Positions 1,295 to 56,093 of a stretch of DNA of 64,000 nt are shown piece by piece. The notes beneath the pieces are model-generated. The model did not search any database, was not told the DNA's origin, and saw nothing but the letters and a program-made list of their open reading frames with translations. The stretch spans positions 62,001 through 126,000 of the forward strand of contig NZ_JACVAJ010000001.1 of the NCBI RefSeq assembly GCF_014851815.1, given 5' to 3'. Made by a program: the position numbers and the translations under genes. The first letter of the stretch is position 1. Every line of letters starts with the position of its first letter. The DNA is from Pseudoxanthomonas sp. PXM01 (lineage in GTDB: Bacteria; Pseudomonadota; Gammaproteobacteria; Xanthomonadales; Xanthomonadaceae).

Positions 1295-3205
1295 TCAGGC
1301 ATCCTTGGCTTCATGCGGCGCTTCGGCGGCATGCGCCGCGTCGCCCAGTTCGTATTCGGCATCGTATTCCCAGGTGCCGTCGTGGTACGGCAGGCCGCAG
1401 GAAATCGACATCGCGCCGCGGTCGGCCGGCGTGACCACATCGCGGCTCACCGCGAACAGGTTGCGACCCAGATCCAGCGCGGCGGGCGAGGTGTTCGGTG
1501 CGATTTCGCGCGCCGCCCACTCCTGCGCATCGACCAGCGCTTCCAGCGTGCCGGCTTCGGCGTCGAGACGGATGATGTCGCCCTCGCGCAGCTTGGCCAG
1601 CGGACCACCACGCGCGGCTTCCGGCGTCAGATGGATCGCGGCGGGAATCTTGCCGGACGCACCGGACAGGCGGCCGTCGGTCACCAGCGCCACGCGGCGG
1701 CCCTGGTTCTGCAGCAGGCCGAGCAGCGGGGCGAGCGAGTGCAGTTCAGGCATGCCGTTGGAACGGGGACCCTGGTAGCGCACCACGGCCACGAAGTCCT
1801 GCGGCAGCGCACCGGCCGCGTGCAGCTTGTTGAGCGCGCGCGGATCGTCGACGACGACCGCGGGCGCTTCGATGTAGCGGTATTCCGGCTTCACCGCCGA
1901 GGTCTTGATCAGCGAGCGGCCGAGGTTGCCGCGCAGCAGGCGCAGGCCGCCCTGGGCCTCGAACGCGCGCGACACCGGGCGCGCGACGTCTTCGTCCGCG
2001 CTCTCGGCGATGCCGGGCGCATAGGCGAGCTTGCCGTCCTGCAGGCGCGGCTCGTCGCAGAACGCGCGCAGGCCGCCGGGCACGATGGTGGTGATGTCGT
2101 GCATCAGGCCGGCGTCGAGCAGTTCGCGGAACACGAACTGCGTGCCACCGGCGGCAGCGAAGCGGTTCACGTCGGCTTCGCCGTTCGGATACACGCGCGC
2201 CAGCAACGGCACGGTCTGCGACAGCAGGTCCATGTCGTCCCAGGTCAGCACGATGCCGGCCGAACGCGCCACGGCGATCCAGTGGATGGTGTGGTTGGTC
2301 GAACCGCCGGTCGCCATCAGCGCCGCCATCGCATTGACGATGGCGCGCTCGTCGATCAGGCGTCCGATCGGACGGTAGTCGTCGCCCAGCGCGGTGATCG
2401 CCAGCGCACGCTCTGCAGCGGCGCGCGTCAGCACATCGCGCAACGGCTGGTCGGGATTGACGAACGAAGTGCCGGGAAGCTGCAGACCCATCGCCTCCAG
2501 CAGCACCTGGTTGGAATTGGCGGTGCCGTAGAACGTGCAGGTGCCGGCGGCGTGGTAACTCGCGGCCTCGGCTTCCAGCAGTTCCTCGCGCGTGGCTTCG
2601 CCGGCGGCGTAGCGTTCGCGTACCGCGGCCTTTTCCTTGTTTGGGATGCCGGGCGACATCGGCCCGGCCGGCACGAACACCGCCGGAAGGTGGCCGAAGG
2701 CCAGCGCACCCATCAGCAGGCCCGGCACGATCTTGTCGCACACGCCCAGGTACAGCGCGGCGTCGAACATGTCATGGCTCAGCGAGATCGCGGTGGCCTG
2801 CGCGATGACGTCGCGCGAGAACAGCGACAACTCCATGCCCGGACGGCCTTGCGTCACGCCGTCGCACATCGCCGGCACGCCGCCGGCGACCTGCGCGGTG
2901 GCACCGAGATCGCGCGCGACCTGGCGGATGATCTCCGGGTAATGCTCGAACGGCTGGTGCGCCGACAGCATGTCGTTGTACGCGCTGATGATGCCGAGGT
3001 TCGGCGTGACGTCGGCGCGCAGCCGGCTCTTGTCGGTCGGACCACACGCGGCGAACGCATGGGCGAGGTTGCCGCAGCTCAGGCGCGCGCGTTGCGGGCC
3101 ATCGCGATGGGCGGCATCGATGCCGTCGAGATAGGCGCGACGCAAGGGTGCGCTGCGCTGGCGGATGCGTTCGGTGACTTCCTGGATGCGGGGGTGCAGG
3201 CTCAT
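1295..3205 (-). CDS. edd: 6-phosphogluconate dehydratase
   Basis: First committed step of the Entner-Doudoroff pathway: dehydrates 6-phosphogluconate to KDPG. The 636-residue protein is a full-length IlvD/Edd-family enzyme. Conserved cysteine-containing segments fitting the family's iron-sulfur ligands are visible (MCDGVTQG near 113, LGVCDKI near 153, [12 protein letters not shown] near 220), plus GGSTNHTIH and the C-terminal [13 protein letters not shown]. The C terminus ends in an Ala/Glu/His-rich tail. eda follows downstream. glk lies 232 bp upstream on the same strand, a gap long enough for an edd promoter. No zwf or pgl gene is in this window. Confidence 0.96.
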
Positions 3206-3437
3206 GGGCGTAGGGCTAGGCTGCAGACGCGGTCATTCTGCATGGCGTGGCGATGGAGGGCCGTGATGCGCAACCTTCCTGCGACTCCAGCGCGTGGAGG
3301 GGAAGGGCGGTGAACGACGGCGACGGCATGATGCTTTCTACCGCCTTTGCGGCAAGCGCGAAAGCGACCAAAGTCAGACCAGTCGGGGTGCGGCGGCGCT
3401 GCGTGTGTTGCGTTGCAGCGCGCATCTGCGCAAAACC

Positions 3438-4445
3438 TCAGGCGTGCGCGGGGCTTTTCGGTCCGAACAGTTCGACCGCATACGCGGCGGCACCGAGCAG
3501 GCCAGGACGTGGATGCACGTTGGCGAGCGTCGGCACGCGGCCCATCGCGGGCGAGAAGCGGCCCTTGTGTTCGAAGCGCTGGCGAAAGCCCGAGTGCTGC
3601 AGCGAGGTCAGCAGTTTCGGCACCAGTCCGCCGGTGAGGAATACGCCGTCCCACGCGCCGGTGGTGAGCACGAGGTCGCCGGCGATGGCGCCGAACACCG
3701 CGCAGAACACGTCCAGCGTGCGCACGCAGCGTGGATCGCCTGCCGCCGCGCGCGCGGTGACGTCCTTCGGTTCCAGCGGACCGCCCGGATCTTCGCCCGC
3801 GATCTCGCTGAGCGCGCGATACAGATTCACCAGGCCGGGACCGCAGATCAGGCGTTCGTTCGACACGCGGCCGAACTGCGCGGACAGGATCTCGAGGATG
3901 CGGATTTCTTCCGGCGTACCGGGCGGAAAGCTCACGTGGCCGCCTTCGGTTTCCAGCGGATACGCGCGGCCGTCGCGGATGATCAGCGCCGCCACGCCCA
4001 GGCCCGTGCCCGGGCCGATGACGGCGTAGGTGCGCGATTCACTGAGCGGAGCAGGGCGCCATTGCGCACCGCCGATCGCCACGACGTCTTTCGGCGTCAG
4101 CAGCGACACCGCCATCGCCTGCGCAGCGAAGTCGTTGACCAGTTTCAGGCCCTGAAAACCGAGTGCCTGCCGCGTGCGGTTCACCGAAATCACCCACGGG
4201 TGGTTGGTGATACGGGCCTCATCGCCATCGACACGGCCGGCGACGGCGAATACACCGTTCTGCGCGGTCGCGCCCGTTTCATCCAGGTAGTGCTGCGCGG
4301 CGTCCGCGAGCGACGGGAAATCGGCGACCACGAACTCGCGCACGCTGTCGTCCAGCAGCGGCACGGAGGCGGACGTATCGGCCAGCGCGAAGCGCGCATT
4401 GGTGCCGCCGATGTCGGCGAGGAGGACGCGATCGGCGCTGCTCAT
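3438..4445 (-). CDS. glk: glucokinase
   Basis: Phosphorylates glucose to glucose 6-phosphate with ATP, feeding the Entner-Doudoroff genes next to it. The 335-residue protein has the ATP phosphate-1 motif DIGGTNARFA (residues 11-20), the presumed catalytic Asp105 in LVNDFAAQA, a GPGTGLG nucleotide-binding turn (144-150) and EGGHVSFPP for sugar binding, all typical of the bacterial Glk family. The frame is open well upstream of 4445, but the protein clearly begins at this ATG (MSSADRVLLADIGG). It is divergent from the ABC ATPase gene; a TATCAT at 4552-4557 (minus strand) is a possible -10 box. Confidence 0.94.
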   Translation of the reverse strand: MSSADRVLLADIGGTNARFALADTSASVPLLDDSVREFVVADFPSLADAAQHYLDETGATAQNGVFAVAGRVDGDEARITNHPWVISVNRTRQALGFQGLKLVNDFAAQAMAVSLLTPKDVVAIGGAQWRPAPLSESRTYAVIGPGTGLGVAALIIRDGRAYPLETEGGHVSFPPGTPEEIRILEILSAQFGRVSNERLICGPGLVNLYRALSEIAGEDPGGPLEPKDVTARAAAGDPRCVRTLDVFCAVFGAIAGDLVLTTGAWDGVFLTGGLVPKLLTSLQHSGFRQRFEHKGRFSPAMGRVPTLANVHPRPGLLGAAAYAVELFGPKSPAHA

Positions 4446-48268: not shown

Positions 48269-49054
48269 TCAGACGTTGTTGTTGAGGTAACCGAGCATCG
48301 AGTCGGTGGTGGAGATCGCCTTGGCATTCATTTCGTAGGCGCGCTGGGTTTCGATCATGCTGACCAGCTCTTCCACCACGTTGACGTTGGAGCCTTCCAG
48401 CGAGCCCTGCACGACGCTGCCCAGCCCATTGAGGCCAGGTGTGCCGTTCTGGGCCGGACCGGAGGCGGTGGTCTCGACGTAGAGGTTCTCGCCCTTGGCC
48501 TGCAGGCCCGACGGATTGACGAAGTCGGTCAGCGTCAGCGAGCCGATCTCCAGCGCCTGCGCCTGGCCGGCCATCGTCACGCTGACGGTGCCGTCGTTGC
48601 CGATGGTCAGCGACTGCGCGCCTTCCGGGACCTGGATGCCGGGCTGCACCGGATAGCCGCTGTTGGTGACCAGCTCGCCCTGCGCGTTGATCTGGAACGA
48701 GCCGTCGCGCGTGTAGGCCGGCGAGCCGTCGGGTAGCAGCACTTCGAAGAAGCCGCGGCCGTTGACCATGACGTCCAGCGCGCGGCCGGTCTGCTGCGGG
48801 TTGCCCTGCTGGAAATCCTTGGAGGTCGACACGACGCGCACGCCGGTGCCGAGCTGCAGGCCGGACGGCAGCTGGGTCTGCGAGGAGGTGGAACCGCCGG
48901 GCTGGCGGACCTGCTGGTACAGCAGGTCTTCGAAGCTGGCGCGGTCGCGCTTGAAGCCGGTGGTGTTGGTGTTGGCCAGGTTGTTGGAGACCACGGACAT
49001 GCGCGTCTGTTGCGCGTCCAGTCCGGTCTTGGCGACCCAGAGGGCTTGGTTCAT
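48269..49054 (-). CDS. flgG: flagellar distal rod protein FlgG
   Basis: A 261-residue rod protein with the [21 protein letters not shown] signature near residues 27-45, LGTGVRV and [21 protein letters not shown], and the C-terminal [27 protein letters not shown]. Unlike in many relatives it is not immediately behind flgF: 934 bp with a composite repeat intervene, and a sigma-54 motif at 49118-49132 offers its own promoter. It heads flgG-flgL. Confidence 0.96.
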
Positions 49055-49117
49055 GGCGTGGTTCCTCGCGGATGGAAGGGGTGGAATCGCGTGGCGCGGT
49101 TCCTCGCCTCCTCTCAG

Positions 49118-49132
49118 GCAAGTCCTGTGCCG
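49118..49132 (-). promoter_or_regulatory. sigma-54 (RpoN) promoter of flgG-flgL
   Basis: On the minus strand CGGCAC-N5-TTGC, one mismatch from the TGGCAC-N5-TTGC consensus, with GG and GC correctly spaced. It lies 63 bp upstream of the flgG ATG. Confidence 0.75.
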
Positions 49133-49474
49133 AAACGGGTGTCGTGGTTCTGGCGCGGGCGATTGGGCCGAAGTGCGACGGGGGTCATGGCCGTGGCGCT
49201 GATGTGGCGGAAAGCCGTCGTTCTAGCCCCTCTTCCTGCGGGAGAGGGGTTGGGGTGAGGGGCGATGGAGTCCGGTGCCTGTGCGAGCCGTTGGCCTGTC
49301 CAAGGTCTTGCGTTGGATGTCTGGGCCCGTCGGGATGGTTCTTTTGGGGTTGCCGGCATGGCGCCGCTCGCCGCGGGGGCCTTCTTTCTTTGCTTGTGCA
49401 AAGAAAGAAGCAAAGAAACACACCCCAGGCGGCACGCCCTCCGCTGCGCTCCGGGTCCGCGAGCGGGCCGGGAA

Positions 49475-49528
49475 TTTTCGTAAGGCACATCCCTGTGCCA
49501 TACGAAAACGCCGTCATCCATGACGGCG
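49475..49528 (-). other. paired GGA-loop hairpins, half A
   Basis: On the minus strand (reading away from the element centre) hairpin I (49509-49528) is CGCCGTCA-TGGA-TGACGGCG and hairpin II (49475-49508) is a TTTTCGTA..GGCACA stem with loop GGGA. Both present ANGGA (ATGGA, AGGGA) at the loop. A CsrA/RsmA-binding role is inference. Confidence 0.5.
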
Positions 49529-49671
49529 CCCTTCGGGTTTTACCCAGCCCACTCGCCGTGCCTCATGGGGGCCCGAAGGCAGCAGCGGAGCAAAGCCCTC
49601 GTCGGAGTTATCTGGGGTGGCTCTTGGGCCCCCTGAGGTCCGGCAGTCCCGGCGGGTAAAACCCGTAGGGC

Positions 49672-49725
49672 GGCGCACAAGGATGTGCGCCGTTTTCGGC
49701 CGGGGCAGGATGCCCCGTCCGAAAA
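49672..49725 (+). other. paired GGA-loop hairpins, half B
   Basis: On the plus strand hairpin I (49672-49691) is GGCGCACA-AGGA-TGTGCGCC and hairpin II (49693-49725) is a TTTTCGG..CGGGGCA stem with loop GGA. Stem sequences differ from half A but remain paired; the GGA loop is kept. Confidence 0.5.
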
Positions 49726-49988
49726 TTCCCGTCGGGACTGCGCACCCGCCGCTTGCGGCGGGCGGACCGCCGGGGTGTGCTTTCTTTGCCTACTTTCTTT
49801 GCACAAGCAAAGAAAGTAGGGCCTCCGCGGCGAGCGGCGCCATGCATCCAGAAAAAGAAAGACTGCCCCGCAAGGCCACGAAACCAAGGGCATTGAGGAC
49901 GTGGTCGATGCCAACGATAGGGAAGGGAACAGACTCCGTCGCCCCTCACCCCAACCCCTCTCCCGGTGGGAGAGGGGCTCAAGCGGCG

Positions 49989-50741
49989 TCAGCCGCCGAG
50001 GCGCAGCAACTGGTTCGACGACTGCGCCATCTCGTCGCCACTGCGGATCACCTTCACCTGCATCTCGAACTGCCGCTGCAACTGGATCATCTGCACCAGC
50101 GCACCGGCCGCATCCACGTTGCTGCCTTCCAGCACGCCCATCGTCAGGCTGTTGCCATTGGCGACGGGCAGGGTCGGTGCCTGCGGATCCTTCGGACGCA
50201 TCAGCCCGTCGCCACCGCGGGCCAGCTGCGACTGCGCCGCTTCCACGATGCGCATGCGGCCGACGATGGCCATCGTCTGCGGGCCTTCGCCCTGCGGAAT
50301 GATCGACACCGTGCCGTCGGCGCCGATGTCGATCGACTGCGCCGGCGGCACCGCGATCGGGTTGCCGTTGTCGTCCAGCACCGCACGGCCGCCGGCGGTG
50401 ACCAGCTGGCCGTTCGGGGTGACGCTCAGCTCGCCGTTGCGCGTATACGCCGTACCGCCGTCGGCAGCCTGCACCGCCATCCAGCGGTTCGGCTGCAGCG
50501 AGACGTCCAGCGAGCGCCCGGTGACCATCTGCGAACCGGTGCGCCCGTCGAAGCCGGGATCGATCAGCACCGCGTCCACGCGCGAGGGAAAGCCCTGGCC
50601 CTGGATCTTGAACGCCTCGGTGCCGGCCAGTGCGGCCTTGAAGCCCTTGGTGTCCACGTTGGCCAGGTTGTGCGACACGGTGCCCTGCGCCTGCAGCGAA
50701 GCGCGGGCGCCGGTCATCGCGACGTAAAGGGCCTTGTCCAT
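49989..50741 (-). CDS. flgF: flagellar proximal rod protein FlgF
   Basis: A 250-residue rod protein: MDKALYVAMTGARASLQAQGTVSHNLANVDTKGFKAA is the flagellar basal-body signature, MTGRSLDVSLQPNRWMAVQA follows in the centre, and the C terminus (GSNVDAAGALVQMIQLQRQFEMQVKVI) is typical. It ends 9 bp before the composite repeat, which separates it from flgG. Confidence 0.95.
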   Translation of the reverse strand: MDKALYVAMTGARASLQAQGTVSHNLANVDTKGFKAALAGTEAFKIQGQGFPSRVDAVLIDPGFDGRTGSQMVTGRSLDVSLQPNRWMAVQAADGGTAYTRNGELSVTPNGQLVTAGGRAVLDDNGNPIAVPPAQSIDIGADGTVSIIPQGEGPQTMAIVGRMRIVEAAQSQLARGGDGLMRPKDPQAPTLPVANGNSLTMGVLEGSNVDAAGALVQMIQLQRQFEMQVKVIRSGDEMAQSSNQLLRLGG

Positions 50742-50769
50742 GCGTCAGTCTCCGTCGGCGTCGGCCGGA

Positions 50770-51990
50770 TCAGCGGATGTTGATCACCGCCTGGGTGATC
50801 TGGTCCTGCGTGGAAATGGCCTGCGAGTTGGCCTGGAAGTTGCGTTGCGCCACGATCATGTTGACCAGCTGCTCGGTCAGGTCGACGGTCGAGGCCTCGA
50901 GCGCGCCGGCAGCCACCTGGCCGAAATCCGACGTACCCGGTGCGCCGATGCGCGGCTCGCCGGATGCATGGCTGTGCGTCCAGGTGTTGTTGCCCTGCGA
51001 CACCAGGCCTTGCGGGTTGCTGAAGTTCGCCAGCGCGACCTGGCCGATCGGGCGATCGACGCCGTTGGAGTAACGCGCGTAGACCACGCCGGTTTCGGAC
51101 ACGCTGAACTCGTTGAGTTTGCCGGTGGCGTAGCCGTCCTGGTTCTGGATGCGCTTGGAGAACTGCTCGCCGTACTGGGTGGTGCCGCTGATGTCCAGCG
51201 TCATGTTCAGCACGCCGGCGCCGGTGCTGGGCGTGAACGGCGCCAACGCGATCTGGCCGTTGGCGGGTGCGGTCAGGGTGCCGTTGTTGTCGAACTGCAC
51301 GGTGGTCGGCGCACCCATCGAGGCGCCGTCCACGTAGGTGTGCATCTGCCACTCGTTCGGATTCGGCGTCTTCACGTAGTAGACGGTCTGCTGGTGGGCC
51401 ACGCCCAGCGAGTCGTACACGGTGACCGAGGTGGTTTCGTTGTAGCTGGCGCTGTCGGTCGGCGAGAACGGCGTGATCGTCGGCTGCGCGGCATTGCCAG
51501 GCAGGGTGACGCCCAGTTCGACGTTGGTGGTCGGCGAGGGCGGGCTGTCCGTGGTCAGCAGGCGCAGGTCGGTCATGTTGCCGGTGTCGAAGCCGACACC
51601 GTCGGCGCGCGGCGGGAACACCTGCAGGCGATAGCCTTCCGGCGTGGTCACGTAGCCGGCCGGATCGCGCTGGAAGTTGCCGGCACGCGTGTAGACGTTG
51701 GTGCCGTTGTTGTTGACGGTGAAGAAACCTTCCTTGTCGATCGCAAGGTCCAGGTAGCGCCCGGTCTGGTTGATGTCGCCCTGCGAGAACTGCTGGGCGA
51801 CATTGGTCAGGCGCACGCCGGCACCGACGTTGTTGCGCGTGAGGCCGTAGCCCGTGGTGGAGAACACCTCGGCGAACTCCGCGCGCGACTCCTTGAAGCC
51901 GGTGGTGTTGACGTTGGCGATGTTGTGCGAGGTGACGTTGAGGTCGGCGTTGGCCGCTCTCATGCCGGACAGCGAGCTTTGGAATGCCAT
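50770..51990 (-). CDS. flgE: flagellar hook protein FlgE
   Basis: A 406-residue hook protein: N terminus MAFQSSLSGMRAANADLNVTSHNIANVNTTGFKESRAEF, hook-specific GYGLTRNNVGAGVRLTNV, and C terminus ASTVDLTEQLVNMIVAQRNFQANSQAISTQDQITQAVINIR. It lies between flgD (37 bp upstream) and flgF (28 bp downstream), probably in one transcript from the flgB promoter. Confidence 0.96.
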   Translation of the reverse strand: MAFQSSLSGMRAANADLNVTSHNIANVNTTGFKESRAEFAEVFSTTGYGLTRNNVGAGVRLTNVAQQFSQGDINQTGRYLDLAIDKEGFFTVNNNGTNVYTRAGNFQRDPAGYVTTPEGYRLQVFPPRADGVGFDTGNMTDLRLLTTDSPPSPTTNVELGVTLPGNAAQPTITPFSPTDSASYNETTSVTVYDSLGVAHQQTVYYVKTPNPNEWQMHTYVDGASMGAPTTVQFDNNGTLTAPANGQIALAPFTPSTGAGVLNMTLDISGTTQYGEQFSKRIQNQDGYATGKLNEFSVSETGVVYARYSNGVDRPIGQVALANFSNPQGLVSQGNNTWTHSHASGEPRIGAPGTSDFGQVAAGALEASTVDLTEQLVNMIVAQRNFQANSQAISTQDQITQAVINIR

Positions 51991-52027
51991 GGAAGACTCC
52001 TTGCGGGATGCGGTGGGAGCGTGGGTG

Positions 52028-52708
52028 TCAGGACGTCGACTTGCCGATGCGCAGCACGTAGTCGAGCGGGGCGGTGCCCAGGCCGGGCAGGTTGAGGTAC
52101 AGGCCGTCGGAGCCGATGGTCACGCTTTCCACGGTGGCGTCGACGTAGGTGTTGAGTGCGGTGCCGGTACCGTCGGTCGCGGTATGGGTGGCCTTGATCG
52201 AGTACTTGCCGGCCTCGGCGCGTTCGCCGTTGGCCTTCAGGCCGTCCCAGGAGAACGCGGTCTCGCCCTTGCCGGTCGCTTCGACCTCGACGGTGTCCAC
52301 GACCACGCCGCTGGCATCCTTGATCTCGAAGGTCACCTTGCCGGCGCCGGGCGACATCACCAGCCCGGTGGCGTTGCCGGAGGCGGGCAGGGCGATGGAT
52401 TCGGACGGCACCACCACCGAATGGCCGACCAGCGCGGCGCCTTTCAGCACCTGGTCGCCGGTCAGCGCGGCGGTGAAGCCGTTGACGGTGCTGTTGAGGT
52501 CGCTGATGCCCTGCACGGTGGAGAACTGCGCCAGCTGGGCGACGAACTCGCTGTTGGACAGCGGCTTCAGCGGATCCTGGTTGCTCAGCTGCTCGGTCAT
52601 CAGCCGCATGAAGTCGGCCTGACCCAGGGTGTCGGCCTTCTTCTTCGGGGTCGCACCGGTGCCGCTGGTGTTGAGGGCGGCAAACGGATCGCCGTTGACA
52701 GTGGTCAT
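52028..52708 (-). CDS. flgD: flagellar hook-capping/assembly protein FlgD
   Basis: A 226-residue protein: the N-terminal FlgD signature FMRLMTEQLSNQDPLKPLSNSEFVAQLAQFSTVQGI and a C-terminal FlgD-Ig/Tudor-like region (TAFSWDGLKANGERAEAGKYSI). It caps the growing hook and is later shed. Standard position between flgC and flgE. Confidence 0.95.
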   Translation of the reverse strand: MTTVNGDPFAALNTSGTGATPKKKADTLGQADFMRLMTEQLSNQDPLKPLSNSEFVAQLAQFSTVQGISDLNSTVNGFTAALTGDQVLKGAALVGHSVVVPSESIALPASGNATGLVMSPGAGKVTFEIKDASGVVVDTVEVEATGKGETAFSWDGLKANGERAEAGKYSIKATHTATDGTGTALNTYVDATVESVTIGSDGLYLNLPGLGTAPLDYVLRIGKSTS

Positions 52709-52736
52709 GCGCGTGCTCGGTCAGGGGAGGGGCGCA

Positions 52737-53144
52737 TCAGCGGCCCATCGTCAGGGTGGCCAGGGCGAGTTCCTTGGCGGTGTTCAACACTTCCACGCCA
52801 GCCTGGTAGCCGCGCGAGGCGGAGATCAGGTTGACCATCTGCGCGACCGGATCCACATCCGGCGCATAGACGTAGCCATCGCCGTCGGCCATCGGGTGGC
52901 CCGGCTCGTAGCGTTTGATCGGCGGTGCTTCGCTCTGCGTGATCTCCTTCACCTGCACCGAGGTCAGCGAGCCGTCCGCATTGAGCTTGCGCGCCTGGAA
53001 GATCGGCTCGATCGGCTTGTAGACCGCGTCCGGCGAGGAGGCGATGGAGTCGGCGTTGGAGAGATTGCTGGCGATGGTGTTCAGGCGCACGGACTGCGCC
53101 TGCAGCGCGGACCCGGCGACGTCGAAGATGGGCAGGTTGCTCAT
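52737..53144 (-). CDS. flgC: flagellar proximal rod protein FlgC
   Basis: A 135-residue rod protein: FDVAGSALQAQSVRLNTIASNLSNADS at the N terminus, GYVYAPDVDPVAQMVNLISASRGYQAGVEVLNTAKELALATL at the C terminus. Length is normal. It begins 11 bp after flgB. Confidence 0.96.
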   Translation of the reverse strand: MSNLPIFDVAGSALQAQSVRLNTIASNLSNADSIASSPDAVYKPIEPIFQARKLNADGSLTSVQVKEITQSEAPPIKRYEPGHPMADGDGYVYAPDVDPVAQMVNLISASRGYQAGVEVLNTAKELALATLTMGR

Positions 53145-53155
53145 GGCATGCCTCC

Positions 53156-53542
53156 TTACTGGCCGGTGATCGCGGTGAGCATGGTGCGCACCTTGGATTC
53201 GATGAAGCTCAGCGAGGCGCGGTACTCCAGCGCCGCGCGGCCGTAGGCGGCGCGCTCGGTATCGGCGTCGACGGTGTTGCCGTCCAGGCTGGGTTGCACG
53301 CCGTCGCGCTCGAAGATGCGCGGCGAGGCGTTGAGCAGGGTCATGTGCTGCTCGCTGGTGCTCCGCAACGGGGCGGCCTTGGCGGCGGCCTGTTCCAGCG
53401 CGGCCTGGAAGTCCAGGTCCTTGGCCTTGAAGTTGGGCGTGTCCGCATTGGACAGGTTGCTGGCGATCAGCTGCATCCGCTGCTCACGCAACGGCAGGGC
53501 CGCCGCGTGGACACCCAGGTAATTGGAGATGGGATTGGACAT
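53156..53542 (-). CDS. flgB: flagellar proximal rod protein FlgB
   Basis: A 128-residue rod protein: AALPLREQRMQLIASNLSNADTPNFKAKDLDFQAALEQA, then GNTVDADTERAAYGRAALEYRASLSFIESKVRTMLTAITGQ. First gene of flgB-flgF. A near-perfect sigma-54 promoter lies 35 bp upstream of its start, so the operon should depend on RpoN and an enhancer-binding activator. Confidence 0.95.
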   Translation of the reverse strand: MSNPISNYLGVHAAALPLREQRMQLIASNLSNADTPNFKAKDLDFQAALEQAAAKAAPLRSTSEQHMTLLNASPRIFERDGVQPSLDGNTVDADTERAAYGRAALEYRASLSFIESKVRTMLTAITGQ

Positions 53543-53576
53543 GGCACCGCTCCGGCAGACCGTTGCCGGGGCAGGT

Positions 53577-53591
53577 GCAAGGCGTGTGCCA
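53577..53591 (-). promoter_or_regulatory. sigma-54 (RpoN) promoter of flgB-flgF
   Basis: On the minus strand TGGCAC-ACGCC-TTGC, an exact match to the sigma-54 consensus, ending 35 bp before the flgB ATG at 53542. Confidence 0.9.
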
Positions 53592-53628
53592 GAACGCGCG
53601 CTCAGCGCGAGCTTCTGGACAGGAAGCC

Positions 53629-53708
53629 GTAGAGTCGAGCTTGCTCGACTGCTTTACGGCCGGGCGTGGGATCCTGTCCGACCGCCAGCGGAGCAAGCTC
53701 CGCTCTAC
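53629..53708. repeat. inverted pair of GTAGAG(C/T)CGAGCTTGCTC hairpins
   Basis: GTAGAGTCGAGCTTGCTCGAC (from 53629) and AGCGGAGCAAGCTCCGCTCTAC (to 53708) are each self-complementary and also complementary to one another. The pair lies between cheV and the flgB promoter, could end cheV transcription, and is a REP-like repeat. Confidence 0.7.
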
Positions 53709-53712
53709 GCCG

Positions 53713-54666
53713 TCAGGCGGCCATTCTTGCCGCCGCCACCTGGTTCAGGCGGAACAGCACGTGTTCGGCCAGCTCGTGCGGGCTGTACTTGGCCACGAAG
53801 GCATTGGCGCCCACCCGTTCGACCATGGCGTTGTTGAATACGCCCGACAGGGACGTGTGCAGCAGCACGTACAGGCCGGCCAGGCCGGGATGGCGCCGGA
53901 TTTCCGTCGTCAGTGTGTAGCCGTCCATGGCCGGCATCTCGATGTCGGAGATGACCATGGCGTAGCGATCGGCCGGGTTCTCGCCGGCGGCGTGCACCTG
54001 CAAGAGATGGTCCAGCGCCTGGCGGCCATCGGAGAGCAGGGTGGCGGTGACGCCCAGTTGCTCCAGCACGCTGCGGATCTGCGAGCGCGCCACGCGGGAA
54101 TCGTCGACCACCAGCACCTGCATCGGCGGGGCGTCGGCCGGCAGGGCCATTTCCGGCGCGAGCGTGGCGTCCATGCGCGACTGGCAGATGTCGGCCAGCA
54201 CGCTTTCCACGTCGATCACCTGGATCAATTCGCCCTGGAACCGCGTCACCGCGGTCAGGAAGCTGTTTTCCGCGCCCAGCTCCGGCGGCGGATGGATGTC
54301 CTCCACCGCGATGTTGACGATGCGCTCCACGCCGCTGACCAGGAAGCCCTGCACCGAGCGGTTGAACTCGGTGACCACCAGGTAGTTGGGGGCATTCTCG
54401 GGATTCGGGTCGCGCTCGGGGTGGCGGATGCTCAGGCCCAGATCGAGCACCGGCACGGACCGCCCGCGCACGTCCGCCACGCCGACGAATTCGGAGGGCA
54501 GGCCGGGCAGCTGGAACAGGCCCGGGCGGCGCAGCACTTCCTGCACCTTGAAGACGTTGACGCCAAAAAGCTGACGCCCGCCCAGGCGGAACAGCAGCAG
54601 GGCGAGGCGGTTGTGGCCGGCCAGGCGGGTGCGCTGGTCGATGCGGTTGAGCAGGTCCTGGGTCAT
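53713..54666 (-). CDS. cheV: chemotaxis coupling protein CheV (CheW-receiver fusion)
   Basis: A 317-residue protein: N-terminal CheW domain (about 20-165, LLLFRLGGRQLFGVNVFKVQEVL, VADVRGRSVPVLDL) and C-terminal receiver (about 185-310) with acidic pocket VVDDS and phosphoacceptor aspartate in VISDIEMPAMDGY and lysine in FVAKYSP. It couples chemoreceptors to CheA and can be phosphorylated. I start at the ATG at 54666 (MTQDLLNRIDQRT), because the ATG at 54675 lies inside a sigma-28 -10 element; the mRNA would be almost leaderless. Confidence 0.92.
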   Translation of the reverse strand: MTQDLLNRIDQRTRLAGHNRLALLLFRLGGRQLFGVNVFKVQEVLRRPGLFQLPGLPSEFVGVADVRGRSVPVLDLGLSIRHPERDPNPENAPNYLVVTEFNRSVQGFLVSGVERIVNIAVEDIHPPPELGAENSFLTAVTRFQGELIQVIDVESVLADICQSRMDATLAPEMALPADAPPMQVLVVDDSRVARSQIRSVLEQLGVTATLLSDGRQALDHLLQVHAAGENPADRYAMVISDIEMPAMDGYTLTTEIRRHPGLAGLYVLLHTSLSGVFNNAMVERVGANAFVAKYSPHELAEHVLFRLNQVAAARMAA

Positions 54667-54673
54667 GTCCAGC

Positions 54674-54700
54674 ATATCGGCCGGGGGGGAGGGCTCTTGA
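54674..54700 (-). promoter_or_regulatory. sigma-28 (FliA) promoter of cheV
   Basis: On the minus strand TCAAGAGC-N11-GCCGATAT (-35 at 54693-54700, -10 at 54674-54681), close to TAAAGTTT-N11-GCCGATAA with correct spacing. Transcription would begin about 54667, at or near the cheV start. Confidence 0.75.
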
Positions 54701-54971
54701 GGGGGCTGCCGAAGCTGTGAAGCCCCTCTCCCTGCGGGAGAGGGGTTGTGGAGTGGGCCAACGAAGTCTGTTGCCTGTGCGGGGCATTGGCCTGCCCACG
54801 CCGCCGCGTTGGATTCCTGGGCCTGCCGGGATCGTTCCTTTGAGGTGCCGGCATGGTGCCGCTCGCCGCGGGGGCCTTACTTTCTTTGCTTGTGCAAAGA
54901 AAGTAAGCAAAGAAAGCACACCCCGGCGGTCCGCCCGCCGCTGCGCGGCGGGTTCGCAGTCCCAGCGGGAA

Positions 54972-55025
54972 TTTTCGTGCGGGGCATCCTGCCCCGTACG
55001 AAAACGGCGCACATCCTTGTGCGCC
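54972..55025 (-). other. paired GGA-loop hairpins, half C
   Basis: On the minus strand hairpin I (55006-55025) is GGCGCACA-AGGA-TGTGCGCC and hairpin II (54972-55004) is a TTTTCGT..CGGGGCA stem with loop GGA. This strand reads toward cheV. Confidence 0.5.
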
Positions 55026-55168
55026 GCCCTGCGGGTTTTGCCCGCTGTGACTGCCGGCCCTCAGGGGGCCCAAAGCTGTAGCTGATGGGTCGACGCTCGT
55101 TTTCGCCGCTGCCGTTGCTTCCGGGTCCCCATGAGGCACGGCGAGTGGGACGGATAAAACCCGAAGGG

Positions 55169-55222
55169 CGCCGTCATGGATGACGGCGTTTTCGTATGGC
55201 ACATGGAGGTGCCATACGAAAA
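55169..55222 (+). other. paired GGA-loop hairpins, half D
   Basis: On the plus strand hairpin I (55169-55188) is CGCCGTCA-TGGA-TGACGGCG and hairpin II (55189-55222) is a perfect 14-bp stem TTTTCGTATGGCAC with loop ATGGAG. Both loops carry ATGGA. This strand reads toward flgA. Confidence 0.5.
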
Positions 55223-55390
55223 TTCCCGGCCCGCTCGCGGACCCGGCGCGTAGCGCCGGGCGTGCCGCCTGGGGTGTGTTTCTTTGCTTCTTTCTTTGCA
55301 CAAGCAAAGAAAGAAGGCCTCCGCGGCGAGCGGCACCAAACCCCAGCGTCAAGAAACCTCACGCCGAAGGCCCTAAGAGGGGACGGCTTC

Positions 55391-55405
55391 TGGCACACCG
55401 CTTGC
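55391..55405 (+). promoter_or_regulatory. sigma-54 (RpoN) promoter of flgA
   Basis: TGGCAC-ACCGC-TTGC, an exact sigma-54 consensus match. The predicted transcription start is about 55417. Confidence 0.9.
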
Positions 55406-55439
55406 ACCTTCCTCGCCGATGAACCACCGGAGCCCACCC

Positions 55440-56093
55440 ATGCTGCTGCGCCTGACCACCGCCCTGATCGGCGGACTGACCGCGTGCGCCGTGCTGGCCG
55501 CGGATTTCCAGCCGGTCGACAGCATCAAGGCCGCTGCCATCGGTGCCTTGCCTCCCGGCAGCGAGGCCGATGCCACGCTCGATCCGGCCCTGCGCCTGCC
55601 GCGCTGTGGCGCCGCGCTGGTCGCGCGCGTGCAGGGGAGCAGCAGCGTGGAGGTCAGTTGCCCGCAGGATGCCGGCTGGCGCCTGTTCGTGCCGGTGCGC
55701 GTGCGCCGCAGCCAGACCGTCCTGGTGCTGGCGCGGGGAATCGCGCCTGGCGAAACAATCACCGCCGACGCCTTCGTCGCCGAGCGCCGCGACGCCTCGC
55801 GTATCGTGGGTGCCGCCGTCGCCGATCCGGCGCAGGCCGTAGGCCGCGTCGCCCGGCGCATGCTGCCGGCCGGCGCGGTGCTGGCGTCGACGGACCTGGT
55901 CGCGCAGCGCCTCATACGTCGCGGCGACAACGTGGCGCTGGTATCCCGTCGGGGTGGCGTGGAAGTCCGCGTGGCCGGCAAGGCGCTGGCCGATGCCGGC
56001 GAGAACGAGCGGGTGACCGTCGAGAACCTGTCTTCGCGCCGTGTGGTGCAGGGCATCGTGGGTGCGGGCGGCGACGTCTGGGTGAGTCGATGA
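55440..56093 (+). CDS. flgA: flagellar P-ring assembly chaperone FlgA
   Basis: A 217-residue periplasmic protein with signal MLLRLTTALIGGLTACAVLAA, a middle cysteine pair (LPRCGAAL, VEVSCPQD) and the C-terminal SAF domain (ARGIAPGETITADAFVAERRD, GRVARRMLPAGAVL, RGDNVALVSRRGGVEVRVAGKALADAG). It assists FlgI ring assembly. I start at 55440, with GGAG upstream, since the in-frame ATG at 55419 sits at the predicted sigma-54 transcription start. Confidence 0.93.
   Translation: MLLRLTTALIGGLTACAVLAADFQPVDSIKAAAIGALPPGSEADATLDPALRLPRCGAALVARVQGSSSVEVSCPQDAGWRLFVPVRVRRSQTVLVLARGIAPGETITADAFVAERRDASRIVGAAVADPAQAVGRVARRMLPAGAVLASTDLVAQRLIRRGDNVALVSRRGGVEVRVAGKALADAGENERVTVENLSSRRVVQGIVGAGGDVWVSR

Follow-up and report, generated by a model that had tools for sequence, protein, structure and literature searches.

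Two copies of a paired palindromic element among flagellar genes

The window analysed here, 64,000 nucleotides of the Pseudoxanthomonas sp. PXM01 genome (contig NZ_JACVAJ010000001.1, positions 62,001 to 126,000), contains two copies of one element of ~490 bp. The first copy, E1 (49356-49845, in window coordinates as throughout), lies between flgF and flgG, and the second, E3 (54851-55340), between cheV and flgA; the gene names were taken from the open reading frames (ORFs) of the window and from the labels of a preliminary description of the sequence. Each element consists of two units of ~228 nt in inverted orientation, subtypes T1 and T2, placed tail to tail. We refer to the strand that reads away from the element centre as outward and to its complement as inward. 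Because of the tail-to-tail arrangement, a transcript through an intact pair carries, in either direction, exactly one unit in the outward sense, that with the GGA loops described below.

Each unit comprises an AT-rich hairpin, P1, followed by a branched domain of ~148 nt with hairpins P4 and P5. Read inward, the order is a GC hairpin, P1, an AAAGAAA and CACNCCC repeat, and the branched domain. The latter contains P0, hairpin P2 and a long-range stem, P3, that closes around P4, P5 and P6; P6 is a short GC hairpin with TTTT after it. In E1, the T1 unit (P1, P2, P3, P4 and P5) occupies 49356-49582 and is outward on the minus strand; it scores 235.6 bits with a profile hidden Markov model and 142.4 bits, at 49421-49567, with a covariance model of the unit, R1. 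The T2 unit of E1 (49618-49845, outward on the plus strand) scores 222.3 bits with the profile and 152.8 bits with R1 (49632-49778). The corresponding values for E3 are 224.1 bits and 148.6 bits (54918-55065) for T2 at 54851-55076, outward on the minus strand, and 234.0 bits and 137.9 bits (55130-55276) for T1 at 55115-55340, outward on the plus strand. The inward letters of P1 are CTTTCTTTGC-TTGT-GCAAAGAAAG, and its copies, grouped without strand as repeat family D3, are at 49381-49410 (E1 T1, with an TTTCTTTGCTTGTGCAAAGAAA core), 49790-49819 (E1 T2), 54877-54906 (E3 T2) and 55287-55316 (E3 T1). Four tail-to-tail pairs occur in the PXM01 genome, with copies 88-92% alike to E1 and nine unit matches to R1. 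A comparison of 48900-55700 with Rfam returned five matches only (E up to 1), all below the gathering score and to unrelated families.

A separate repeat, CCCCTCTCCC-NNN-GGGAGAGGGGTTGGGGTGAGGG, flanks E1 in inverted orientation (49225-49260 and 49930-49982) and E3 on one side (54721-54760), and may drive inversion of the element. Microsatellites of the type (TTGCTG)n, variable in length, are located directly upstream of many outward units, as seen at the unit edges of loci L259 and L228.

Covarying hairpins with conserved GGA loops

The preliminary description had placed two adjacent hairpins in each half element, with GGA in the loops and with stems that differ between subtypes yet remain paired. 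All eight hairpins were found at the positions given, from both sequence and predicted fold. On the minus strand, the T1 unit of E1 has P4 at 49475-49508 (outward loop AGGGA) and P5 at 49509-49528 (ATGGA), and the T2 unit of E3 has P4 at 54972-55004 (AGGA) and P5 at 55005-55026 (AAGGA). On the plus strand, P5 and P4 of the E1 T2 unit are at 49671-49692 (AAGGA) and 49693-49725 (AGGA), and those of the E3 T1 unit at 55169-55188 (ATGGA) and 55189-55222 (ATGGA). Read outward, all eight loops thus contain A(N)GGA, six as ANGGA and two as AGGA. Most helices differ between T1 and T2, and the changes are indeed compensated. Beyond what had been described, P4 and P5 lie within the branched domain, where P0, P2 and P3 covary as well. 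The outward folds of the four domains range from -84 to -103 kcal/mol (z of -6.1 to -7.9 against dinucleotide shuffles). In the two halves for which both strands were computed, the outward fold is the more stable (-84.2 vs -70.5 and -102.6 vs -94.4 kcal/mol).

The proposed covariation also holds in a wide alignment of 106 distinct rows, which was fitted to the model and so leans toward structure. Changes on both sides are seen in 40 of 47 pairs, compared with 26.7 in shuffles, and the covariation score is 0.403 compared with 0.133. When the partners were slid by 1-3 columns, paired cells fell from 94% to 38-48%. The closing C-G pair is retained in 103/104 (P4) and 102/104 (P5) rows with letters at that point, and many inner pairs vary freely. 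The hairpins are real and form part of a larger unit, and the covariation is strong.

Loops were counted in 101 units, following removal of 9 truncated or duplicate rows from a 110-row alignment. The outward P4 loop contains A(N)GGA in 95 units (46 ANGGA, 49 AGGA), with GGA only in 2 and none in 4; for P5 the number is 94 (78 ANGGA, 16 AGGA), with GGA only in 4 and none in 3. On the inward strand, a GGA loop was found in 0/101. The loops of other copies therefore keep the motif. The P2 loop provides a built-in contrast, as it varies in the same units in which the P4 and P5 loops are kept. Both P4 and P5 carry GGA in 94 of the 101 units, and the distance between the two GGA is 23, 24 or 25 nt in 85 of these 94; among the other 9 gaps, 8 are an artefact of the string search and one is 48 nt.

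In the excerpts of PMC7652899 consulted, the CsrB repeat is given as CAGGA(U/A/C)G, the CsrA motif from systematic evolution of ligands by exponential enrichment (SELEX) as RUACARGGAUGU, and the RsmE site as an ANGGAN hexaloop. The letters of the P4 and P5 loops match these motifs. According to the same excerpts, a CsrA dimer bridges sites 10-63 nt apart, and the 23-25 nt gap is compatible with such bridging. PXM01 has one csrA gene. Among 36 scorable genomes with csrA, two GGA hairpins were present in 15, one in 7 and none in 14, and among four scorable named genomes without csrA, one genome has one GGA hairpin; 3 unscorable loci were left out of each group, and the lineages are not independent. 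Locus L046, where the csrA match is below threshold, has no GGA hairpins. Our tentative reading, which we rank first although at somewhat under even probability, is that the outward strand encodes an RsmA/CsrA-binding RNA within a mobile-like repeat.

Distribution of the units and history of the flgF-flgG site

Matches to R1 were found in 36 of 38 Pseudoxanthomonas genomes at 0-33 units each, counts that may be low given that 82 candidates were scored per genome. A DNA search matched 18 of 19 genomes of the genus (PXM01 included) and 1 of 12 others, the latter over 41 bases only. In a selection of 75 Xanthomonadaceae loci, R1 matched 110 times, with no match in some loci (e.g. L062 and L107); in 50 loci selected from other groups it matched six times, weakly. 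Taken by itself, the P1 motif reaches much further, being present in at least 116 stretches that include Pseudomonas, Solimonas, Nevskiaceae, Pasteurellaceae, Hydrogenophilus, and metagenome-assembled genomes (MAGs) from rumen and candidate phyla. BLAST adds replicons of Caballeronia and Ilyobacter. Among Burkholderiales, the genomes found to have P1 are the centre genome and 1 of the 149 others.

The interiors bounded by P1 differ between groups. Two A(N)GGA hairpins are present in many Gammaproteobacteria and in a Selenomonadaceae MAG, and in Pseudomonas, Solimonas and this MAG they stand beside P1 in otherwise different sequence. Two Burkholderiales genomes and several Pasteurellaceae have another interior module; in this class (L297-L312, L074 and L045) a CTCGC..GCTCA(G/A)ACA module replaces the GGA hairpins. 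Single A(N)GGA hairpins adjoin P1 in distant gammaproteobacterial and other proteobacterial genomes (L061, L135, L151 and L096, the last without a csrA match). Plasmid pNK81 of Caballeronia sp. NK8 has BLAST matches at 21 places on the replicon and, at ~2995-3525 of locus L160, an imperfect palindrome of ~500 bp bounded by P1 copies, in which no GGA hairpins were seen. P1 or a close variant is also found in a Peregrinibacteria MAG (L046), a Peribacteria MAG (L103) and an Ilyobacter replicon (Fusobacterium; L159), occurrences that may reflect spread by horizontal transfer, contaminated MAGs or an ancient origin. An autonomous transposon between distant P1 copies was considered and rejected: in the one wide pair inspected, of 2 kb at L112, the ORF between the copies is permease-like and not a transposase.

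flgF is present in 28 of the 38 Pseudoxanthomonas genomes. In 15 of these the flgF-flgG gap is filled, measuring 754-1022 bp with one T1 and one T2 unit, and FlgF never falls below 92% identity to that of the window. The gap is empty (39-285 bp) in the other 13, where FlgF is at most 88% identical. All 15 genomes with FlgF at least 92% identical have thus kept E1, and the coexistence of filled and empty sites (15 vs 13 of 28) is a sign of mobility of the type shown by miniature inverted-repeat transposable elements (MITEs). T2 adjoins flgF in 5 genomes and T1 in 10; the occurrence of both orientations at one site indicates that the pair inverts or is exchanged. We infer a single insertion in a subclade, probably followed by inversion or exchange.

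Strand preference, competing explanations and known systems

RNA tolerates G-U pairs but not A-C pairs, and each G-U seen on one strand corresponds to an A-C on its complement. We applied this to 61 pairs predicted on both strands in 203 non-redundant units (removal of matches that were incomplete or below 60 bits left 210 distinct units, and a 97% filter 203), using columns with at least 90% Watson-Crick pairs, a filter picked after the first counts were known. Under these conditions, 80 cells are G-U in the outward sense and 25 in the inward sense. One-sided changes between 98 matched nearest unit pairs, in columns at least 90% paired, gave 59 outward G-U and 20 outward A-C (p=1.3e-5). At an 80% threshold the nearest pairs gave 79 outward and 33 inward, and the direction is identical at thresholds of 0.80, 0.90 and 0.95. 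The P4 and P5 stems alone show 34 G-U vs 8 A-C cells outward (28 vs 7 in matched pairs). The per-site rates at unpaired sites are 0.041 (G-to-A), 0.031 (C-to-T), 0.068 (A-to-G) and 0.038 (T-to-C), while stem changes number 39 CG-to-AC vs 10 CG-to-GU and 20 AU-to-AC vs 10 AU-to-GU. The G-to-A/C-to-T contrast leans mildly the same way as the stems and the A-to-G/T-to-C contrast the opposite way, so mutation at unpaired sites offers no consistent match. A DNA palindrome free of any strand signal, first favoured from unfiltered counts, was weakened by the strand-neutral pairs, the column filter and the nearest-pair comparison. Two separate signals, the GGA loops and the G-U preference, thus appear to fall on one strand, and the reading as an RsmA-binding RNA is partly supported.

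Several observations weigh against this reading. Unfiltered counts of inward G-U vs A-C show little or no bias (70 vs 58; 68 vs 83 in 4703 cells; 98 vs 134; and, as inward vs outward G-U with no threshold, 202 vs 308). RNase P of the genus (28 genomes, 2/30 loci being too short) is far more strongly biased, with G-U to A-C of 247 to 8 in the sense and 45 to 59 in the antisense direction, and 61 to 8 on strand-neutral pairs (10 to 0 at the 90% column threshold; 7 to 0 in matched pairs). Overall, the outward strand looks like the one that folds, but its bias falls short of that in a genuine RNA, and the same pattern might come from DNA in single-stranded form. Stems, at 6-15 bp, are longer than those of most SELEX hairpins for CsrA, which have four or fewer pairs in the excerpts available (PMC7652899). 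A MAG without csrA (L096) carries one GGA hairpin, and under a loose rule GAGGA loops occur in a csrA-less Burkholderiales genome (Aquabacterium), two of them in one copy. In ~130-nt stretches at the 5' edge of outward units, 92 lacking a near partner and 70 having one, patterns resembling sigma70, -10 and GacA-box sites were found 0 times, and sigma54-like patterns in 2/92 and 0/70; all are simple patterns in generally known consensus forms, which a distant or unusual promoter may escape. Lastly, 108 clusters have a gene on both sides, and 47 of these are solo, at 36 independent sites. An upstream gene is continued by the outward strand at 17 of the 36 solo sites and by the inward strand at 29. 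Tandem genes flank 22 independent solo sites, and at 17 of these the mRNA would have the inward sense (5 not; p=0.017). Genes were called with a home-made codon-usage finder rather than a standard annotator, in 75 regions chosen among the listed genus matches (flgF-flgG sites mostly omitted), 37 Xanthomonadaceae loci, two loci of the PXM01 genome and the window. Of all the arguments against the outward strand having a general role in mRNA, this tandem co-orientation weighs most.

Some of these observations suit a palindromic repeat acting at the DNA level, a serious possibility that we place second. In this case, cruciform or single-stranded DNA hairpins would be bound by a transposase or another protein, with GGA as the protein contact and G-T tolerated because the outward single strand is the substrate. 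The weakness of the strand bias without the column filter, the 0-33 copies per genome and the two orientations at flgF-flgG (5 and 10 genomes) are all consistent with this, as is the P1 superfamily with unrelated interiors in Pasteurellaceae, Burkholderiales, a Fusobacterium and candidate-phylum MAGs. Y1_Tnp transposase genes occur in 35 of the 38 genus genomes, a co-presence counted per genome. However, such a repeat does not predict a loop following CsrA rules with an optional N, nor the 23-25 nt gap; a transposase gene would not fit into a unit, and the wide P1 pair at L112 holds the permease-like ORF. A second repeat, used as a DNA-only control for wobble, gave 21 vs 9 (p=0.043), based on few independent events and anchored on one side. 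Two arguments were dropped. Both-sided changes are common in the units (91 vs 116 one-sided in nearest pairs) and also in RNase P (14 vs 10), and therefore do not discriminate in favour of DNA. A low G-U frequency does not count against RNA either: strand-neutral unfiltered pairs are G-U in 61/2862 cells (2.1%) of RNase P and 308/11438 (2.7%) of outward units, so that it is the ratio to A-C that differs. Sense-folded pairs are G-U in 7.8% for RNase P and at most 2.5% for the units.

The preliminary description further proposed that the elements might place binding sites in leaders toward flgG and flgA, and this part does not stand. A sigma54-like site separates each element from its gene, GGCACAGGACTTGC (49118-49131, minus strand) between E1 and flgG and GGCACACCGCTTGC (55392-55405, plus strand) between E3 and flgA. 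With these sites downstream of E1 and E3, neither element is part of the flgG or flgA leader. A further sigma54-like site precedes flgB (53577-53590), and the window contains six such matches vs 1.0 expected, all from a pattern search with the same consensus. The form GGCA(C/T)N5TTGC occurs before flgG in 15/15 filled and 8/13 empty gaps. No sigma70-like site was found in 49000-55600, where 0.4 would be expected by chance and GC-rich promoters may escape detection. A terminator scan lists 11 sites vs 5.2 expected, and these include an outward-strand one in each T1 unit (49439-49416 on the minus strand and 55256-55281 on the plus strand), a point in favour of an outward RNA. Read-through from the flgB operon at E1 would meet T2 inward first and T1 outward second.

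The same gene contexts invite an explanation based on the inward RNA, in which the P5/P6 hairpins with GGGTTTTA would act as a bidirectional terminator or 3'-untranslated region (3'-UTR) stabiliser that ends or protects the transcript of the upstream gene. The inward strand continuing that gene at 29/36 solo sites, the tandem co-orientation (17/22, p=0.017) and the TTTT following the short GC hairpin P6 are as expected. The G-U preference is on the opposite strand, P6 is absent from the list of the terminator scan, and 10 of 49 simple tail-to-tail pairs (orthologous sites included) lie between divergent genes. We consider this explanation improbable. Still less probable is the absence of any selected loop function, with copy-to-copy conversion or template switching keeping the hairpins perfect and GGA a chance legacy of an old founder: the both-sided to one-sided ratio in P4/P5 (73 to 50, matched pairs; weak given 14 to 10 over all RNase P columns) and the 88-92% likeness to E1 of the genome's own four copies would fit, but the P2 loop drifts while the P4 and P5 loops are stable in the same units, G-U is preferred outward, and the same loops recur in Pseudomonas and the Selenomonadaceae MAG.

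The claim of a CsrA/RsmA-binding RNA therefore stands in part, in its loop motif and gap, the presence of csrA, the covariation and the outward G-U in well-paired columns, and not in the proposed sites in flgG and flgA leaders. On the reading we rank first, E1 and E3 would belong to a palindromic repeat that is dispersed and mobile-like; its outward RNA would present two RsmA/CsrA hairpins ~24 nt apart, and a single RsmA dimer might bridge the P4 and P5 loops. The RNA would arise mainly through read-through, at E1 forming the 3'-terminal part of the flgBCDEF transcript and not a leader, and could bind RsmA as a local 3'-UTR site or low-level decoy. Transcription, RsmA binding and any effect on a gene are inferred here. 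More speculatively, and rather unlikely as a whole, a palindromic mobile-element superfamily may have gained a two-hairpin RsmA/CsrA module in Gammaproteobacteria, its insertions seeding the genome with CsrA sites as a self-spreading RsmA sponge or UTR switch; tail-to-tail pairing would then guarantee one functional unit whichever direction the pair is transcribed. The decoys of the global regulator CsrA/RsmA are usually regarded as a few dedicated small RNA (sRNA) genes. If the reading is correct, transposable repeats would be linked to global RNA regulation through a dispersed element that bears the CsrA motif on a single strand and reaches tens of copies. Such an element might also explain what keeps RsmA in check in Xanthomonadaceae. 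Copies that have or lack GGA, and the filled and empty state of one site in sister species, form a natural test set.

Among known repeats, the units resemble repetitive extragenic palindromes (REPs) and bacterial interspersed mosaic elements (BIMEs), described in the excerpts of PMC3733652 consulted as many-copy intergenic palindromes, often in inverted pairs of two subtypes such as GTAG and CGTC head-to-head heterodimers. The units are likewise intergenic, many-copy and arranged as inverted pairs of two subtypes. They differ in size and structure: a unit has ~228 nt and folds into several helices plus a long-range stem, compared with one hairpin of 20-40 nt bearing a conserved GTAG/CGTC tag in REPs. 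GTAG stands beside some P1 copies (e.g. E1 T2) but, as judged by eye, is not conserved in the alignment. The P1 letters were not found in the literature searched, and no repeat family was recognised as the same in the parts available of work on REP/RAYT, RsmA/CsrA, and repeats of Xanthomonas, Stenotrophomonas, Lysobacter and Pseudoxanthomonas; the family is apparently undescribed, although a prior description could exist outside that literature.

sRNAs of the CsrB/RsmZ type have their own promoter, usually with a GacA/UvrY box. The units, by comparison, have two GGA hairpins in a branched domain, long stems and many dispersed copies, and no GacA-box-like pattern was seen. They share A(N)GGA in hairpin loops with the CsrA/RsmA sponges CsrB/CsrC and RsmX/Y/Z, the features of the latter being those generally known. 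A P4 loop CAGGATG and a P5 loop CAGGACG equal the CsrB repeat as given in the excerpts of PMC7652899. In the case of RsmU of Xanthomonas campestris, the portions available of PMC7694677 describe an RsmA-binding RNA with several GGA motifs, from the 3'-UTR of comEA mRNA and not belonging to any sRNA family recognised as an RsmA antagonist. RsmU does not look like a member of the repeat: no convincing match to the unit model was found at 18 of the 20 HHH_3 loci taken from 8 Xanthomonas genomes and from PXM01 (best E 0.048, partial). RsmU is likewise an RsmA-binding RNA from a 3'-UTR in the same bacterial family (PMC7694677, in the portions available), as the outward RNA of E1 would be.

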